Below are positions 8,738 to 16,851 of a DNA stretch of 64,000 nucleotides, in pieces. Origin of the DNA: Actinomycetes bacterium (GTDB lineage Bacteria > Actinomycetota > Acidimicrobiia > Acidimicrobiales > Aldehydirespiratoraceae). Numbering within the stretch: the stretch's first letter is position 1; each line of letters starts with the position of its first letter. Position numbers and translations under genes: made by a program. Below the pieces are notes generated by a model. It was not told the DNA's origin, did not search any database, and saw only the letters and a list, made by a program, of their open reading frames with translations. The DNA is taken from positions 1 through 64,000 of the forward strand of contig JAJRXC010000059.1 in assembly GCA_024276495.1 (NCBI GenBank). Reading direction: 5' to 3'.

Positions 8738-9652
8738 GTGCGCAGGTCCATGATTGCTCGTGTCGTCGGTGCGCTCGTCGCCCTCGCCGCCCTCGCGTCG
8801 GCCTGTGGATCAGCCGACGACTCGGCCGGCGCCGACGGCGAGTTCAGCGGCACCCTCATGATCGGGGCCATTCCCGACCAGGACGGAGAGATCCTGGCCC
8901 GCAACTACGGCAAGCTCGCCGACTACCTGTCGGACGAGATCGGCATGGAGGTCGAGTTCCAACCGGTGACCGAATACGACGGTGCCGTCACCGCGTTCAA
9001 GGTGGGCGCCCTCGATCTCGTGTGGTTCGGTGGACTGACCGGCGTCCAGGCCCGACTCGAGGTCGACGGCGCCGAAGCGATCGCCCAGCGCAACATCGAC
9101 GCCGAGTTCACCTCGGTGTTCATCGCGGGCACCGACACCGGCATCGAGCCCGTCGACGACATCGCGGGGCTCTCGGTGCTCGAGGGCCGACGATTCACGT
9201 TCGGTTCGGAGTCCTCGACGTCGGGCCGGCTGATGCCACAGTCGTTCCTGAGCCAGGCGGGCGTCGGGCTCGACTCGTTCGCCGGTGAGCCGGGGTTCTC
9301 CGGCAGCCACGACCAGACGATCGCGCTGGTCGAGGCCGGCACCTTCGAAGCCGGGGTGCTCAACAGCCAGGTCTGGGAGGCCCGTCTCGTCGAAGGGGCG
9401 TTCGACGAGTCCAGGGTCCGGGTGATCTTCGAGACGCCGCCCTACTACGACTACCACTGGGTGGCCCGACCGGAGATCGACGCCGGGCTCCGCCAGGCCA
9501 TCGTCGACGCGTTCACCCGACTCGACCCCGCGGTGCCCGAAGAGGCGGAGATCCTGTCCTTCTTCGGCGCCGAATCCTTCATCACCACCGAGAGCTCCAA
9601 CTACGACCAGATCGAAGCAGTCGGTCGGGAGATCGGCAAGATCACCGACTAG
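8738..9652 (+). CDS. phnD: PhnD-like periplasmic/lipoprotein substrate-binding protein
   Basis: A 304-residue ABC-transporter binding protein anchored as a lipoprotein: the signal peptide ends in a lipobox with Cys23 (LASAC). The mature part has the phosphate/phosphite/phosphonate-binding layout, with MIGAIPDQD at the start of lobe one and YDGAVTAFKVGALDLVWFGG, then a GSESSTSGRLMP ligand-loop segment. GTG 8738 is chosen because AAGGAG lies 7 nt upstream. It heads a three-gene operon with an ATPase and a fused permease. Family relatives bind small oxyanions. Because the operon runs directly into selenium genes, the ligand here may be a selenium oxyanion (inference). Confidence 0.82.
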   Translation: MRRSMIARVVGALVALAALASACGSADDSAGADGEFSGTLMIGAIPDQDGEILARNYGKLADYLSDEIGMEVEFQPVTEYDGAVTAFKVGALDLVWFGGLTGVQARLEVDGAEAIAQRNIDAEFTSVFIAGTDTGIEPVDDIAGLSVLEGRRFTFGSESSTSGRLMPQSFLSQAGVGLDSFAGEPGFSGSHDQTIALVEAGTFEAGVLNSQVWEARLVEGAFDESRVRVIFETPPYYDYHWVARPEIDAGLRQAIVDAFTRLDPAVPEEAEILSFFGAESFITTESSNYDQIEAVGREIGKITD

Positions 9653-9656
9653 CCCC

Positions 9657-10448
9657 ATGTCGACCCCGACCCACCCACCGTCGGCGATGCTGCGACTCGA
9701 CGCAGTGACCGTGCGCTACACACCCGGTGGGGTCGCGGCCGTCGACAACCTCCATCTGACGGTCGAGCCGGGAGAACGAGTCGCCCTCGTCGGCCCGTCG
9801 GGCGCCGGCAAATCCTCGATCCTCGCCGTCGCCAACGGCCTCATGTTGCCGTCATCGGGCACCGCCGAGGTGTTCGGCGTCGACACCGCGGCGCTGAGCC
9901 GTCGCGAGCACCGGGCGACCCGCCGACGGATCGGGACCGTGCACCAGGACTTCGCCCTCGTCGGTTCGCTGCGCGTCATCCACAACGTGGCCGCGGGACG
10001 CCTCGGAACCTGGGGTCCGCTCCGGGCCTTGCGCTCGCTCGTCCGGCCGACCGACCGCGACGAGATCCATGCCGTGCTCGAACGGGTCGGCATCCCCGAG
10101 AAGCTCTGGTACCGCACCGACCAGCTCTCGGGGGGCCAGCAGCAGCGGGTCGCCATCGCCCGGGTCCTGTTCCAACAACCCGATCTCCTGCTGGCCGACG
10201 AACCGGTCAGTAGTCTCGACCCCACCCGGTCGAAGTCGGTGCTCGACGTGTTGGTGGAGGCGTGCGAGGCCGACCCCGCCCGCGCCCTGATCACGAGCAT
10301 CCACGACGCACCTCTGGCGCTGAGTCACTTCACCCGGATCGTCGGGCTCCGCGACGGGCAGACGGTGTTCGACGAGCCGACCCGCGTTGTCACCCCCGAG
10401 ATGCTCGACCGGCTCTACGCGTTCGAAGACACCCCATTCGACCCGTGA
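9657..10448 (+). CDS. phnC: PhnC-like ABC transporter ATPase
   Basis: A 263-residue ABC ATPase with Walker A GPSGAGKSS (about residue 45), Q-loop VHQDF, signature LSGGQQQRV, Walker B LLLADEP and the switch His in SIHDAPLA. It energises the import system formed with the binding protein upstream and the permease downstream. The gene starts 4 bp after the binding-protein stop and overlaps the permease start by 4 bp (GTGA), so the three proteins should be co-produced. Confidence 0.87.
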   Translation: MSTPTHPPSAMLRLDAVTVRYTPGGVAAVDNLHLTVEPGERVALVGPSGAGKSSILAVANGLMLPSSGTAEVFGVDTAALSRREHRATRRRIGTVHQDFALVGSLRVIHNVAAGRLGTWGPLRALRSLVRPTDRDEIHAVLERVGIPEKLWYRTDQLSGGQQQRVAIARVLFQQPDLLLADEPVSSLDPTRSKSVLDVLVEACEADPARALITSIHDAPLALSHFTRIVGLRDGQTVFDEPTRVVTPEMLDRLYAFEDTPFDP

Positions 10449-12133
10449 CCATCGAGACGGTGGCTCCCACGGACACCCCGACGCGGACCCCCACGCCGAC
10501 GTCGACGGGGCGCCGACGGCGGGGCTGGGCGGCGATCATCGTGGTGCTGGTGATCTGGTCGACCCAGCGGGCCGGTGTCAACCTGCCCGACCTGATCAAC
10601 CCGCGAGGGTGGGGCCAGGTGCGATCGTTCTTCGCCGCGATGGTCCGCCCGGACCTCTCCCCCGACTTCCTGCGCCTGACGGTCGAGGAGACCGCCGTCA
10701 CCTTGTCCTACGCGCTTCTTGGCACCGCACTCTCGGTGGCGATCGGGATCCTCGGCGGACCGTTGTTGTCGGAACGGCTGTGGCGACCGTTGGCCGGCGA
10801 ACCCACCACCCGGGCCCGATGGGGCTGGCGCCTCGCCCGGTTCACGTTCGCGGTCCCCCGCTCGATGCACGAGGTCGTCTTCGGGCTGATCCTTCTCAAC
10901 ATCTTGGGCCTCGACCCGCTCGTGGCCGTTCTGGCCATCGGTGTGCCCTTCGGGGCCGTGACCGCGAAGGTCTTCTCAGAGCTCATCGACGAGGTGCCGT
11001 CCGATGCCGAACGGGCGATGCGCGCCGCGGGAGCCGGTCGGCTGACCGCCATGATCTTCGGGGTCGTCCCGACTGCCCTCGGCGACCTCCTGTCCTACGC
11101 GTTCTACCGGTTCGAGTGCGCGATCCGATCGGCCGCCGTCCTCGGCATCGTCGGCGCCGGAGGGCTGGGGTTCCAGCTCGCCTTGTCGTTCCAGTCGTTG
11201 CGCTACGACCAGATGTGGACGTTGCTGTGGGCGCTGATCGCGGTCGGCGGCATGGCCGACTGGTGGTCGTCGTCGGTGCGTCGGCGCCGCTCCGATTCGG
11301 GCCCCGACCTGTCCGCGGGCGAGGGCGCCAGTCACAGCCTCGAACGCGACCCGTTCCTCGTCGCGAGCGCCGCCGGCGGGGCCCTCATGATCCCGGTGGC
11401 CTGGTGGTGGCTCGATCTGTCGTTGTCGTCGTTGTGGAGCCCAAGGACCCGCCGACTCGGCGCGGAGCTGGCCGGCGACGCATGGCCCCCTCAGGTCGGC
11501 CCCGGCGGGTGGCGCAGCCTCATCGCCGACGCGGCCGACACCGTCGCTCTGGCGATGCTCGCCCTGGCCCTGGCGTGGACGTTCGCATCGGCGCTCGCCT
11601 TCCTCGCCGCCCGTCGAAAGAGGGTGCCGGGCGGCCCCGCGCTGCTGCCCGGCCGGACCTTGTCCTGGCTCTCGCGATTCGTCCTGCTGATCGCCCGTTC
11701 CGTGCCGCCCCCGGTCTGGGCCCTGCTCGCCGTCTTCGTCTTCCTCCCCGGGCTGTGGCCCGGGGTGGTCGCCTTGGCGATCTATCAGTTCGGGGTGCTC
11801 GGACGCCTCGAGGGCGAAGTGGTCGAGAACCTCGACGACCGCCCCGGCCGGGCCCTGCGAGCCGCCGGCGCGTCTCGCAGCGGCGCCATCGCCTACGCGA
11901 CGTTGCCGGCGGTCTCGACCCGGTTCGTCGCCCTCGGCCTCTATCGGTGGGAGGTCACGATCCGCGACACCGTGATCGTGGGGGTGGTCGGTGCGGCCGG
12001 TCTCGGTCAGCGCATCTCCGAGCAGACGTCGAGCTTCGACTATCAGGGCATCCTGGCCTCGATCGCGGTGCTGGTCGTCTTGACCGTCGCCGCCGACATC
12101 GCGTCGGCCGCGATCCGTCGCACCCTGCGCTGA
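10445..12133 (+). CDS. phnE: Fused double PhnE-like ABC permease
   Basis: A 562-residue membrane protein made of two complete binding-protein-dependent permease domains in one chain. Domain one spans about residues 75-280, with the EAA-loop DAERAMRAAGAGR. Domain two spans about 340-562, with the equivalent loop GRALRAAGASR. Most PhnE permeases are single-domain homodimers; here the pair is fused, so one polypeptide can form the channel. A Thr/Pro-rich N-terminal tail (residues 5-20) precedes the first membrane segment. Starts at GTG 10445, overlapping the ATPase stop. It ends 1 bp from the convergent senB stop. Confidence 0.85.
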   Translation: MTIETVAPTDTPTRTPTPTSTGRRRRGWAAIIVVLVIWSTQRAGVNLPDLINPRGWGQVRSFFAAMVRPDLSPDFLRLTVEETAVTLSYALLGTALSVAIGILGGPLLSERLWRPLAGEPTTRARWGWRLARFTFAVPRSMHEVVFGLILLNILGLDPLVAVLAIGVPFGAVTAKVFSELIDEVPSDAERAMRAAGAGRLTAMIFGVVPTALGDLLSYAFYRFECAIRSAAVLGIVGAGGLGFQLALSFQSLRYDQMWTLLWALIAVGGMADWWSSSVRRRRSDSGPDLSAGEGASHSLERDPFLVASAAGGALMIPVAWWWLDLSLSSLWSPRTRRLGAELAGDAWPPQVGPGGWRSLIADAADTVALAMLALALAWTFASALAFLAARRKRVPGGPALLPGRTLSWLSRFVLLIARSVPPPVWALLAVFVFLPGLWPGVVALAIYQFGVLGRLEGEVVENLDDRPGRALRAAGASRSGAIAYATLPAVSTRFVALGLYRWEVTIRDTVIVGVVGAAGLGQRISEQTSSFDYQGILASIAVLVVLTVAADIASAAIRRTLR

Positions 12134-12134
12134 C

Positions 12135-13151
12135 CTATTCCCCCGACCGCGTCGGCCGGCCGAGCGCGTCGAACACGGCGCGCCACCCAGCTCGTTCGTG
12201 GGCCGGCTCGGTGATGTCGACGAGGGCGTCGATTCGGCGCTGCAGGTCGGCCAGCGCCCCCGGCTCGGTCTCGAGCCGGGCGAGCAGACGGGCAAGGGCC
12301 GCGTCGTCGCCGACGGGGACCAGAGCCGGATAGTCGGCGCCGAGCAGCCCCCGGTTGCCGTCGATCGCGGTGCCGACCACCGGAACGCCGGCGGCGATGG
12401 CTTCGGTCACGACGTTGGCACCACCCTCGAGCCGCGACGTGCAGGCCAACACGGTGGCCCCGGCCAACCACGCTCGGGCCTCGGCCGCGGTGATCTCGCC
12501 CAGCCACCGGTAGCGCGGGTTGTCGCTCTCCTCCCGACGGGCCGCGGTCGCCCAGCCGTCGTCGTGGGCGGCGCCGGCGTGAACGACCCGCACCGTCGAC
12601 GACTCCGGCAGTCGAGCCGCGGCCCGGGCGGCGAGCAGCGGATCCTTCACATCTCGCAGGTGGGCGAGCACGACGACGACGAACCCATCGGGGACGCGGC
12701 GTTCCGGCGTCGGCCCGTCGACCGATTGGTGCACGACGTGGGCCTTGGCCGCCAACGCGGGATCGAACCCGGCCAGGCGTTCGATCGCATCGGCCTGCAG
12801 GACCACGAGCCGGTCGGCCTCGTCGATGGCAGCGCGGGCATCGACGTCGTCGGGCAGATCGGCATAGAGATCGGTCCCGGCCAGCGCGACCACCACCGGC
12901 CGGTCGGGGGCCTGGGCCCGGGAGGTCGCGACCGCGGCCGCGCAGCGACGCGCGTGGATGACCACCGCGAGATCGCGATCGGCGCCCAGATCGAGCTCGC
13001 GGGCGACGAACCCCTCGCCTTGATCCGCGGTGAGGGGAACGATCTCGACGCCATGTCCGAGCTCCTCGAACCGCCGCGCCCACCGGGCCGCGGTGACGTC
13101 GTTGCCCGAGGACGCCCCCGGACGGCGAGGGCTGATGATCGAGATGCGCAC
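12135..13151 (-). CDS. senB: SenB-type selenosugar synthase (GT4-fold glycosyltransferase)
   Basis: A 338-residue GT-B glycosyltransferase-like protein. The N-terminus ISIISPRRPGASSGNDVTAA followed by an RWARRFEELGH helix is characteristic of SenB. A HLRDVKDPLLAARAAARLP segment marks the start of the second Rossmann lobe, and EGGANVVTEAIAAGVPVVGT is the nucleotide-sugar-binding end. In the described selenoneine pathway, SenB joins selenophosphate and UDP-GlcNAc to give a selenosugar. The GTG start is 3 nt after the senA stop, so senA-senB form an operon. Assignment rests on the family-like N-terminus plus linkage to senA and selD. A generic GT4 enzyme is the alternative. Confidence 0.83.
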   Translation of the reverse strand: MRISIISPRRPGASSGNDVTAARWARRFEELGHGVEIVPLTADQGEGFVARELDLGADRDLAVVIHARRCAAAVATSRAQAPDRPVVVALAGTDLYADLPDDVDARAAIDEADRLVVLQADAIERLAGFDPALAAKAHVVHQSVDGPTPERRVPDGFVVVVLAHLRDVKDPLLAARAAARLPESSTVRVVHAGAAHDDGWATAARREESDNPRYRWLGEITAAEARAWLAGATVLACTSRLEGGANVVTEAIAAGVPVVGTAIDGNRGLLGADYPALVPVGDDAALARLLARLETEPGALADLQRRIDALVDITEPAHERAGWRAVFDALGRPTRSGE

Positions 13152-13154
13152 GAC

Positions 13155-14456
13155 TCAGTCGAGGGCGCAGGTCCGAAAGCCGGCGAAGACGTCCTGGCGG
13201 TCCGGGGTGAAGTAGTTGCGGAAGGTCGAGCGGACGTAGCGGGCCCGCGTCGCCCACGACCCACCCCTCAGGACCTTGCGACTGTGGAACCAGGGCTCGG
13301 AGTTGTCACGGTAGGCGTCGGGTTCGAAGTGGGGGTAGGGCTCGAAGGTGGACGATGTCCACTCCCACACGTTGCCGATCAGCTGACGATGGCCCCAGGG
13401 GCCGTCACCGGCCGCGAAGGCGCCGACGTCGACGGTTCCCCCCGTGGTGCCGTCGAGCGCGGCGTCGTCGGCCGTCGCGTCTCGCGCACCCCACGGGTAC
13501 CACGAGTGCTTGACCCCGTCGGGCCCGGTGGTGGCCGCCATCTCCCACTCGGCCTCGGTGGGGAGCCGCCGGCCGGCCCAGCGGCAGAACGCGTCGGCCT
13601 CCCACCAGTTGACGTGCATCATCGGCCGCGTCGCGTCGGCGTCGATGTCACGCCAGGTGTCGAACCATCGGTGTTGCCATTCGCCACCCTCCTGACGCCA
13701 GTAGACCGGCGCGGTCGACCCGGTCTGCGATCTCCATCGCCGACCCTCCGGCGACCACAGCTCCTCACGCCCGTAGCCGCCGTCGGCGACGAACTCGCGA
13801 TAGCCACCCATCGTGACCGGCGTCGCGGCCATCGAGAAGGCACCGACGTCGACGGGTCGGGCCCAACGCTCGTTGTCCATCACAAATGGCTGGTCGCGGC
13901 TGCCGCCGAGCAGCAGACGGCCACCGGGGACGTCGATGTCGCCGGCCGCCACCGGATCGGGGGCGACATCGATTCGGGTCTGGCCGGGACGGGGTGACCA
14001 TCCGAGGGTCTGGCGGGTGTAGGTCAACGCCTCGGTGTGGGCGTCGTGGTGCATCACCGCGTAGAGCGAGAAGTGGGCCGTCGAATCGACACCACGGTCG
14101 TCGAGCACCATCGCGGCCACCGCATCACCGACCTCGCGCACATAGCGACGGGTTCGTTCGGGGTCGGGATACGAGAGCTGCCAGCGGGTGATGTGGGGAA
14201 CCGCCGCCGAGTCGTAGCGGGCGTCGACGTCCGCCATGAGCGGCGAACCACCGTGGAGTTGACGCAACACGAACCATTCGGCGAACCAGGCCGCGTGGGC
14301 GATCTCCCAGATCACGGGGTTGATGATCACCTGGTAGGGCGCCATCCACCGCGGGTCGTCGTCGGTCAGATCGGCGACCGTCCCCAGCATCGACTCGGTG
14401 GCATCGCCGACCCAGTCGGCCAGTCGTTCGGCCGGTACCCACTCGGAGAGTTCCAT
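13155..14456 (-). CDS. senA: SenA-type selenoneine synthase (EgtB-like)
   Basis: A 433-residue iron enzyme with an N-terminal DinB-like domain and a C-terminal formylglycine-generating-enzyme/sulfatase-modifying domain, as in EgtB. Putative iron ligands are His54 (IAHAAWF) and the H-x3-H pair His136/His140 (MHHDAHTE). The C-terminal domain shows RRLPTEAEWEMA, IGNVWEWTSS and LRGGSWATR. EgtB makes the ergothioneine precursor. The SenA branch instead couples hercynine to a selenosugar to make selenoneine, and linkage to senB and selD favours SenA. No egtD (hercynine synthase) lies in the window. A TAGGTT -10 sits 6 nt before the ATG. Confidence 0.83.
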   Translation of the reverse strand: MELSEWVPAERLADWVGDATESMLGTVADLTDDDPRWMAPYQVIINPVIWEIAHAAWFAEWFVLRQLHGGSPLMADVDARYDSAAVPHITRWQLSYPDPERTRRYVREVGDAVAAMVLDDRGVDSTAHFSLYAVMHHDAHTEALTYTRQTLGWSPRPGQTRIDVAPDPVAAGDIDVPGGRLLLGGSRDQPFVMDNERWARPVDVGAFSMAATPVTMGGYREFVADGGYGREELWSPEGRRWRSQTGSTAPVYWRQEGGEWQHRWFDTWRDIDADATRPMMHVNWWEADAFCRWAGRRLPTEAEWEMAATTGPDGVKHSWYPWGARDATADDAALDGTTGGTVDVGAFAAGDGPWGHRQLIGNVWEWTSSTFEPYPHFEPDAYRDNSEPWFHSRKVLRGGSWATRARYVRSTFRNYFTPDRQDVFAGFRTCALD

Positions 14457-14565
14457 GCGTTGAACCTAGCGGCCATGGTCGGCTTCGGATCAGGTCGTGT
14501 CCGCTCCCGCCGACCCCACAGTAGGGTTGCGGGCCAGCCCGAACCCACCCGACCCGGAGGCCACC
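14457..14565. promoter_or_regulatory. Divergent senA / selD promoter region
   Basis: This 109-bp spacer drives both halves of the selenium cluster. On the minus strand TAGGTT (14463-14468) is 6 nt before the senA ATG, which implies a leaderless mRNA. On the plus strand TAGGGT (14522-14527) lies about 38 nt before the selD ATG, and GGAGG at 14557-14560 serves as ribosome site. No obvious operator palindrome is visible. Confidence 0.5.
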
Positions 14566-15606
14566 ATGAGCGACGAAAGCACGACCCGTCTCACTCAGTT
14601 CAGCCACGGCGCCGGTTGAGGTTGCAAGCTCGCCCCCGGCGAGCTGGCGCACGTCGTGCGCCATCTGGAGACCATCGAGAGCCCCGATCTCCTGGTCGGC
14701 ACCGAGACAGGTGACGACGCCGCGGTCTGGCGCATCGACGACGAGCGGGCCCTGATCTCGACCGCCGACTTCATCACCCCGGTGGTCGACGACGCCCGCA
14801 CGTGGGGCCGGGTCGCGGCCGCCAACAGCATCTCCGACGTCTACGCGATGGGAGGGCGCCCGCTCTTCGTCCTCAACCTCGTCGGCTGGAACAGTGACGC
14901 GCTGGGCACCGAGCTCCTCGGCGAGGTCCTCCTCGGTGGCAGCGAGGTCGCCACCCGGGCCGGCGCCGTGGTCGTCGGGGGCCACACGATCGACGACCCC
15001 GAACCCAAGTACGGCATGTCGGTCACCGGAGAGGTCCACCCCGACCGCATCCTGACGAACGCCGGGCTGGAACCCGGCCAGGACCTGATCTTGTCGAAGC
15101 CGCTCGGCATCGGCATCATCACCACCGCGATCAAGGCCGACGAGGCCTCCGGCGACGTGGCCGACGGCGCGATCGAATCGATGACCCGGCTCAACGACAT
15201 CGCCTCGGCGGCGGCGGTCGCCGCCGGCGCGACCGGCTGCACCGACGTCACCGGGTTCGGGCTTCTCGGCCATCTCGGTCGCATGACCGTCGAGTCCGGG
15301 GTCGACACCACCATCGAGGTCGAGGCAACACCTTTCCTTCCTGGCGCGAAGGATCTGGCCGCCGCCGGGATGATCCCGGGTGGCACCCGTCGCAACCTCA
15401 CCTGGATCTCCGAACATCTCGATGTCGGGTCCGCCGACGAGCTCACCCAGCTCCTGTTGGCCGATGCCCAGACATCGGGTGGTCTCGTCTTCGGGGTCGA
15501 TCCCGGTGAGTCGGCGACGGTGTTGGCCGAGCTCGAGCGCACGGGGCACACCGCGGCCGTGATCGGTCGCACCGCCGATGGTTCCGGACGGGTGGTCCTG
15601 CGCTGA
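14566..15606 (+). CDS. selD: Selenide water dikinase SelD/SenC, selenocysteine-containing
   Basis: A 346-residue selenophosphate synthetase, which makes selenophosphate from selenide and ATP. The reading frame starts at ATG 14566 (GGAGG 5 nt upstream) and passes an in-frame TGA at 14617-14619 before staying open to 15606. Read as Sec, the TGA gives SHGAGUGCKLAP: Sec18 falls exactly at the catalytic Cys17 of E. coli SelD, and Lys21 matches its essential Lys20. GDDAAVW (about residue 47) is the metal/ATP Asp motif. An annotator treating TGA as stop would report only 14656-15606 and lose the active site. Diverges from senA, so it could serve both selenoneine and Sec synthesis. Confidence 0.92.
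14617..14663 (+). promoter_or_regulatory. UGA (Sec) codon followed by two hairpins, SECIS candidate
   Basis: Seven nt after the TGA lies a perfect 8-bp stem, AGCTCGCC/GGCGAGCT (14627-14634 with 14638-14645), with a CCC loop. It is followed at once by a second perfect 8-bp stem, TGGCGCAC/GTGCGCCA (14645-14652 with 14656-14663), with a GTC loop. Bacterial SECIS elements are hairpins inside the coding region just downstream of UGA. The first loop lacks the G/U residues typical of the E. coli element, so which hairpin SelB would bind is unresolved. Confidence 0.65.
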
Positions 15607-15609
15607 GCG

Positions 15610-16851
15610 TCACCGCCGGGCCCGGTAGCGGCGGGCGTCGTCGGGATTGTCGGCTGCCTCGATGCGGTCCTGTACGTCACTCAACGCGGCTCGGGCCCGT
15701 CGGTCGTACCGCGGGTCGGGTCTGATCTCGTCGCCGGGAAGGGGCGGCAGCCGGAACCCGGAGTAGACGACCTTGCGGGGACGCTCGATCGGCGGGTGGG
15801 CACGATGCAAGGTGTCGCTGCAGTGGACGGTGATGTCGCCGGTGCGGGTCTCCAGCACGATCGGCTGGAGGTCGAGGGCCGGGTCGCGTCCGGTCGCCAT
15901 CGTGTTGGCCCGATGCGAGCCGGGGATGACCCCGAGGGCGCCGCTCACCCGATCCGCACCGGTCACGCTGATGCCGCAGGTCAGCGAGTTGCACATGTAG
16001 GAGTGCATGCCCTGGCCACAGTCCTTGTGCCACGGAAGATCCGAGAGTCCTTTCACGATGCCCAGCGGCTTGACGAGACCCTCGGCCCCGCCGTCGTGGC
16101 GATGCCCGTCGCCGGTCAGGCCACCGAGCCACGTGAACCGCTCGTCCTCGACGAGCCCGCGCAACGCCACCGACTTCTCGTGGAAGAACAGGACCCGCAC
16201 GGCCCGGGTCGCTCCGGCTGCGTCCTCGGCCCACCATGACTCGTCGTCATCGGGAGTCGCACGTCCGATCCACTCGTCGATGTCGGCCGCGATGGTCGCC
16301 ATCTCGGGCTCGTCGAACACGCCCCGGATGTGGAGGAAGCCGGCTTCGGTGAGGAAATGGGCGATCTCCTCACGATCGTCGTCGAGGGTGAACGACCGGC
16401 CGACGTCGAGCGGCTCACCATCGAGGCCCGAGAGGGTCACGTCACCGGGCTCGTGCACCCGACGACCGTCGAACAGGGCGCGCAGGACCGGCTCCCATCC
16501 GATCCAGTCGTTCATGTTGCCGGCGGTGAGTCGGACCCGGGAGGTCATTGCGAGCCCCATCGTCGACTGCCGATCCGTGACGAGGTCCGACAAGGCGTCG
16601 TCGGCCAGATCCGCGACCACCCCCGCGTCGTCGACGCCCGGTGTCGCGACGACGACCCCGCCGCGGGCAGCGAGTGTCACTGCCCGACCGTCGACCTCCA
16701 GCCCGAGGGCCGGCAGCCCCGTGTGCTCGATGCCTCTCCCGGCGATCTCGCCATGATCCGAGAGCGCCCGCGGGATCATGTCGTCGAACACCTCGTCGCG
16801 TTCGAACGCGTGCCGGTCGCGGTGTCGCCGGGTTCGCTGGTCGATCGTCAC
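15610..16851 (-). CDS. Phytanoyl-CoA dioxygenase (PhyH)-family oxygenase
   Basis: A 413-residue protein whose C-terminal half is a double-stranded beta-helix Fe(II)/2-oxoglutarate oxygenase. The iron ligands appear as the H-x-D in LPWHKDCGQGMH (about residue 277) and the distal His of VHCSDTLHRAH, with the RKVVYSGFR Arg likely binding 2-oxoglutarate. The first 150 residues do not resemble the core domain and are unassigned. The start is GTG 16851 with GGAGG 5 nt upstream. It converges on selD with 3 bp between stops. Such enzymes hydroxylate acyl-CoAs or small natural products; no link to selenium is shown beyond proximity. Confidence 0.78.
   Translation of the reverse strand: MTIDQRTRRHRDRHAFERDEVFDDMIPRALSDHGEIAGRGIEHTGLPALGLEVDGRAVTLAARGGVVVATPGVDDAGVVADLADDALSDLVTDRQSTMGLAMTSRVRLTAGNMNDWIGWEPVLRALFDGRRVHEPGDVTLSGLDGEPLDVGRSFTLDDDREEIAHFLTEAGFLHIRGVFDEPEMATIAADIDEWIGRATPDDDESWWAEDAAGATRAVRVLFFHEKSVALRGLVEDERFTWLGGLTGDGHRHDGGAEGLVKPLGIVKGLSDLPWHKDCGQGMHSYMCNSLTCGISVTGADRVSGALGVIPGSHRANTMATGRDPALDLQPIVLETRTGDITVHCSDTLHRAHPPIERPRKVVYSGFRLPPLPGDEIRPDPRYDRRARAALSDVQDRIEAADNPDDARRYRARR

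Follow-up and report, generated by a model that had tools for sequence, protein, structure and literature searches.

Within a 64,000-nucleotide stretch of an actinomycete of the family Aldehydirespiratoraceae (class Acidimicrobiia; assembly GCA_024276495.1, contig JAJRXC010000059.1, positions 1 to 64,000; hereafter the window), we examined a compact group of genes that probably serve the synthesis of selenoneine, a selenium-containing antioxidant. The genes senA and senB lie on the minus strand only 3 nt apart and selD runs divergently on the plus strand, so that the clustered SenB-like, EgtB-like and SelD genes described in an earlier note made from the sequence alone, two in an operon and one divergent, are all present. 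An ATP-binding cassette (ABC) transporter abuts senB tail to tail, with the end of the permease gene one base from senB (Table 1); the GTG start of the permease gene at 10445 was placed from the reading frame and overlaps the end of the ATPase gene. The genome (labelled G000 below) is a draft of 111 contigs. Taken together, the locus is quite likely a selenium-uptake and selenoneine-biosynthesis island.

Table 1. Genes and features of the sen locus, in coordinates of the window
Feature	Position	Strand	Support
Substrate-binding protein, putative selenate ABC transporter (TIGR04553)	8738..9652	+	317.5 bits, cut-off 250
ABC transporter ATPase, PhnC-like	9657..10448	+	TIGR02315 220.8 bits, below the cut-off of 266 for true PhnC
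Double ABC permease, PhnE-like	10445..12133	+	TIGR01097 338.8 bits, two stretches
SenB, selenosugar synthase	12135..13151	-	TIGR04348 306.6 bits (cut-off 300); PDB matches; catalytic residues
SenA, selenoneine synthase	13155..14456	-	NF041186 445.3 bits (cut-off 420); tree; pocket residues
SelD (SenC), selenide water dikinase, probable selenocysteine at residue 18	14566..15606	+	368.6 bits with TGA read through
In-frame UGA, read as selenocysteine	14617..14619	+	TGA in all sen-linked Actinomycetota SelD examined
SECIS-like hairpin, apical loop near 14653-14655	14645..14663	+	Pairing and covariation in ten relatives

For the selenosugar step, the GT4-like protein turned out to be SenB, as the earlier note had supposed, and not a generic glycosyltransferase: it passes the SenB equivalog cut-off, and its matches in the PDB are SenB-type Se-glycosyltransferases only. 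The residues N20, T23, H58, R61, T85, R155, K158 and E231 of Variovorax paradoxus SenB are retained and include the catalytic K158, the donor residues N20, T23 and E231 and the selenophosphate pocket (functional roles from PMC10891094). The EgtB-like protein with three iron histidines can likewise be assigned to SenA, as it passes the SenA model and reaches only 293.5 bits against the EgtB model TIGR03440 (cut-off 360), and its iron ligands H54, H136 and H140 are invariant among 26 homologues. In a tree of 80 sequences, it does not group with ergothioneine EgtB but falls in a set of seven (98% in the Shimodaira-Hasegawa-like approximate likelihood ratio test, SH-aLRT) nested in a set of 14 (99%), all of them SenB-linked. 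This clade excludes the actinobacterial EgtBs, the EgtB of this genome and the type I EgtB of known structure (4x8b), and OvsA, the ovoselenol selenoxide synthase, sits on a separate long branch. An AlphaFold model compared by fold gave Z scores of about 40 to 46 for SenA, OvsA and EgtB alike and was dropped as a means of telling them apart; we rely on tree, motifs and genomic context.

From these assignments a route can be proposed. The ABC transporter would import a selenium oxyanion, which would be reduced to selenide and then converted to selenophosphate by SelD with an active-site selenocysteine, a step for which the sequence gives strong support. By analogy, SenB would combine selenophosphate with a uridine diphosphate (UDP) sugar to a selenosugar, and the iron enzyme SenA would use O2 to attach the selenium of this selenosugar to the imidazole ring of hercynine, the resulting selenoxide then breaking down to selenoneine. 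EgtD, whose gene lies on another contig, would supply the hercynine. The steps over selenophosphate and selenosugar to selenoneine are established in V. paradoxus according to PMC9814287, which summarises Kayrouz et al. 2022, and the match to this pathway, first suggested in the earlier note, is supported by model cut-offs, tree, conserved residues and the genomic egtD.

Several points weigh against this reading. SenA and SenB clear their curated cut-offs by a narrow margin, T83 of V. paradoxus SenB is Ala in the window and in the nearest sen clusters, and egtD is not part of the cluster. The first steps of the route also count here, namely the reduction of the oxyanion to selenide and the cargo of the transporter, which we infer to be selenate or selenite because of the putative family label and the linkage to sen genes. 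Besides, among solved structures the histidine-using OvsA comes closest to SenA, and Asn385 stands where V. paradoxus SenA has Tyr.

Since OvsA is the closest solved structure, ovoselenol had to be weighed as well: the SenA-like enzyme could, in the manner of OvsA, take histidine or a partly methylated form of it as substrate and yield a different selenium-histidine compound. OvsA is the best PDB match by both sequence and fold, the Asn at the position of OvsA M401 is unlike SenA or EgtB, and one relative from the same order (L197) carries the Met of OvsA there. However, the OvsA score is raised by a loop absent from V. paradoxus SenA, OvsA branches apart, and the window cluster has no methyltransferase gene next to it. 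For the substrate pocket, an OvsA triple mutant (M401Y/Q430N/A431F, PDB 8ux5) that was made hercynine-binding and selenoneine-forming gives a comparison. The corresponding residues are Y/N/F in V. paradoxus SenA, Y/N/W in type I EgtB and M/Q/A in OvsA, whereas the window SenA (pocket residues Y382, N385, N414 and Y415) has N/N/Y and thus lacks the histidine-type pocket. N414 and the aromatic Y415 are of the hercynine type, in contrast to Q430/A431 of OvsA, and make up two of the three discriminating positions; N385 is neither SenA- nor EgtB-like. The N/N/Y pocket occurs in ten sequences including the window and N/N/F in two more, all from the class or phylum to which the window belongs, and Asn at this position is a lineage-specific change. 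Clusters from the same SenA clade carry egtD: in one actinobacterial cluster with an identical N/N/Y pocket (L090, which shares its contig with L068), selD, senA and senB have a true egtD next to them (336.7 bits, cut-off 290.9). Given the two hercynine-type residues and this egtD-bearing cluster, hercynine is most likely the substrate and selenoneine the product predicted for the window SenA, and an OvsA-like activity on histidine appears unlikely.

The earlier note was right in recognizing a SelD homologue, but it overlooked the probable selenocysteine (Sec) and the machinery for it, as well as the transporter and the need to consider ovoselenol, and the start of the open reading frame had to be corrected to 14566. 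Under genetic code table 11 the frame opens only at 14656, which drops the catalytic N-terminus (338.1 bits against TIGR00476, cut-off 125). The likely start is the ATG at 14566 in the same frame, behind a GGAGG ribosome-binding site, giving the N-terminus MSDESTTRLTQFSHGAG-(TGA)-GCKLAPGEL; when the TGA is read through, the protein covers model positions 1-308 of 311. The TGA falls at the catalytic Sec/Cys position, where 3u0o, the best-matching solved SelD, has Cys. In sen-linked selD genes TGA occupies the aligned codon of every case read among Actinomycetota, Poribacteria, Chloracidobacterium and Myxococcota; all four cases from Pseudomonadota have TGC there. SelD was in view at 22 of 54 distinct SenB loci (TGA in 20, TGC in 2), a sample biased by being drawn largely with an actinobacterial query; these counts rest on SenB, as some first-pass SenA matches with no SenB in view may not be selenoneine synthases. 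Almost all actinobacterial genomes with SenA or SenB (22 of 23) have a SelD, every full-length copy with one TGA, and a tRNA-Sec above cut-off was found in 18 of these genomes, several of the others being incomplete drafts. The genome of the window itself carries a tRNA-Sec with anticodon UCA, selB, and selA adjoining selB, and a search of it revealed no second SelD above cut-off. Because of this machinery, the only SelD found is very probably a selenoprotein. As SelD would also feed Sec synthesis via SelA, SelB and tRNA-Sec, a Sec-containing SelD would depend on its own product.

For the recoding signal we take the hairpin about 33 nt past the UGA as a putative selenocysteine insertion sequence (SECIS): in ten relatives 93.8% of its cells are paired, compared with 26-55% in shifted registers, and three pairs are changed on both sides. 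A neighbouring hairpin (14627-14645) is strong in the window but unconserved, with 75% of cells paired and no two-sided changes, and was rejected. The energy z-score for the whole stretch is only -2.27, and a search of positions 12000-16000 against Rfam gave nothing above the gathering score. One might argue that the in-frame UGA stems from a sequencing error or acts as a genuine stop, leaving SelD broken or starting downstream, as only the shortened frame is open under table 11 and the assembly is fragmented. This is very improbable, however, with a TGA at the same codon of a conserved motif in independent genomes from several phyla, a ribosome-binding site ahead of the upstream ATG, a covarying hairpin and complete Sec machinery, in a family known to contain Sec (PMC13188914). 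Apart from SelD, a formate-dehydrogenase-like gene (L177, G000:C3:5427-7298) contains a single TGA within its frame, in surroundings typical of Sec, NRT*HAPSVVGLATVF, and likely encodes a second selenoprotein of the genome; FdhA is the sole other selenoprotein family that was checked, so the listing is not exhaustive. SelU, the tRNA 2-selenouridine synthase, was looked for in the genome and not found, and thus Sec and selenoneine remain as the uses of selenium seen here.

The surroundings of the genes are repeated in relatives. SenB occurs in 13 of 397 genomes of the same order and in none of 17 other sampled members of the family. The order transporter, senB-senA and selD with UGA recurs in four genomes as far as their contigs extend (G871, G761, G818, G821), and the permease end of this arrangement is also visible in two others (G883, G223). 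A TIGR04553 binding protein above cut-off, as in the window, adjoins sen genes in Actinomycetota (L090), Poribacteria (L104) and Burkholderiaceae (L173), and the binding proteins examined near sen genes of Rubrobacter score below it (173-181 bits; L082, L133). A literature search on TIGR04553 transporters found nothing informative. We left a phytanoyl-CoA dioxygenase gene ending at 15610 on the minus strand outside the cluster, because none of the other sen loci searched contains a homologue, and an upstream alcohol dehydrogenase and VOC protein have no match among 13 loci compared. SenB, SenA and SelD co-occur repeatedly in different phyla, and although SenA belongs to the wider EgtB superfamily, this repeated co-occurrence, the failed EgtB and passed SenA cut-offs and the position apart from EgtB in the tree make it hardly credible that an ordinary ergothioneine EgtB merely has a generic GT4 glycosyltransferase and a SelD of unrelated function as neighbours.

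Other arrangements of these genes were also encountered. In G772 (L198:4581-11641) senB, senA, selD with UGA, selB and selA share a stretch of about 7 kb, which brings the genes for selenoneine and for Sec together in one locus. In G043 of the same order as the window (L077:38-2761), a SenB (304.5 bits, cut-off 300) unaccompanied by SenA forms a tight operon with a cysteine-synthase-like pyridoxal-phosphate enzyme and an S-adenosylmethionine-dependent methyltransferase; the pair of SenB and methyltransferase recurs with 57% identity in G711, also of this order (L205:31-1139), and these two clusters may make another SenB-derived selenium metabolite. Further SenB genes with no SenA nearby were seen in L085:4692-8166 (G593) and L087:7558-8508 (G559), the former close to a protein that resembles OsmC and is related to the 'OsmC-related (seleno)protein' family. 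Conversely, L141, L143, L109, L113 and similar loci of Rokubacteria and Methylomirabilota have a SenA-like gene with adjacent egtD and no SenB in view.

As to the hercynine supply, the earlier note had seen no egtD at the locus, and the gene is found elsewhere in the genome (G000:C23:89300-90199; PF10017, 350.6 bits), where it adjoins egtB. This EgtB (L021:6275-7444, minus strand) comes without its N-terminal helix in this assembly. In eight relatives that were read, EgtB has a conserved N-terminal stretch ending in DVSPTKWH.AH.TWFFE; the corresponding stretch of the genome's EgtB is MTVVDVRPRTLVTWFLETF, and a four-residue gap removes the first iron histidine. The rest of the frame is intact, and the shortened start has a good ribosome-binding site ahead of it. 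The shortening could be an assembly fault; if it is real, hercynine may serve mainly selenoneine synthesis. It is conceivable, though doubtful, that this lineage has replaced ergothioneine by selenoneine synthesis, with EgtB damaged and hercynine going to a SenA with Asn385 that has its own importer and a Sec-containing SelD. If true, selenium would be needed twice, as a substrate and within the enzyme that activates it.

A 2026 review (PMC13188914) counts two selenium metabolites that have been characterised in bacteria, selenoneine and ovoselenol, and the pathway proposed here and every part of it are already of known kinds. With senABC of V. paradoxus the locus has the three enzymes SelD/SenC, SenB and SenA in common, and also the key residues of SenB and the iron ligands of SenA. 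It differs in that selD has the opposite orientation, SenA retains a loop (about 45 residues) that V. paradoxus SenA lacks and has Asn at 385, and a TIGR04553 transporter is attached, which is also the case in the Burkholderiaceae cluster L173; the Burkholderiaceae relatives carry Cys at the probable Sec position of SelD. The Rubrobacter clusters (e.g., L115 of Rubrobacter marinus) are likewise actinobacterial and comprise senA, senB and a selD with UGA, but there senB and selD stand together and senA is divergent. Concerning the iron enzyme, OvsA of Halomonas utahensis (PDB 8u41, 8u42) shares fold (Z 46), iron ligands and the logic of the selenium donor with the window SenA, and differs in pocket and branch. 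The ergothioneine sulfoxide synthase EgtB (PDB 4x8b) shares fold (Z 45.7) and iron ligands, whereas the window SenA is below the EgtB cut-off, outside the EgtB clade and genetically linked to SenB. The unusual feature seems to be that a single locus of the Acidimicrobiia combines a Sec-containing SelD with a TIGR04553 importer and a SenA of the Asn type. Such a locus would tie together selenium import, Sec-dependent SelD and selenometabolite synthesis in a wiring that recurs across related Acidimicrobiia, and it gives TIGR04553 transporters a testable role. It also illustrates that gene calling under table 11 shortens sen-linked selD genes, and the pocket variant of SenA offers a direct mutational test of what sets hercynine use apart from histidine use.

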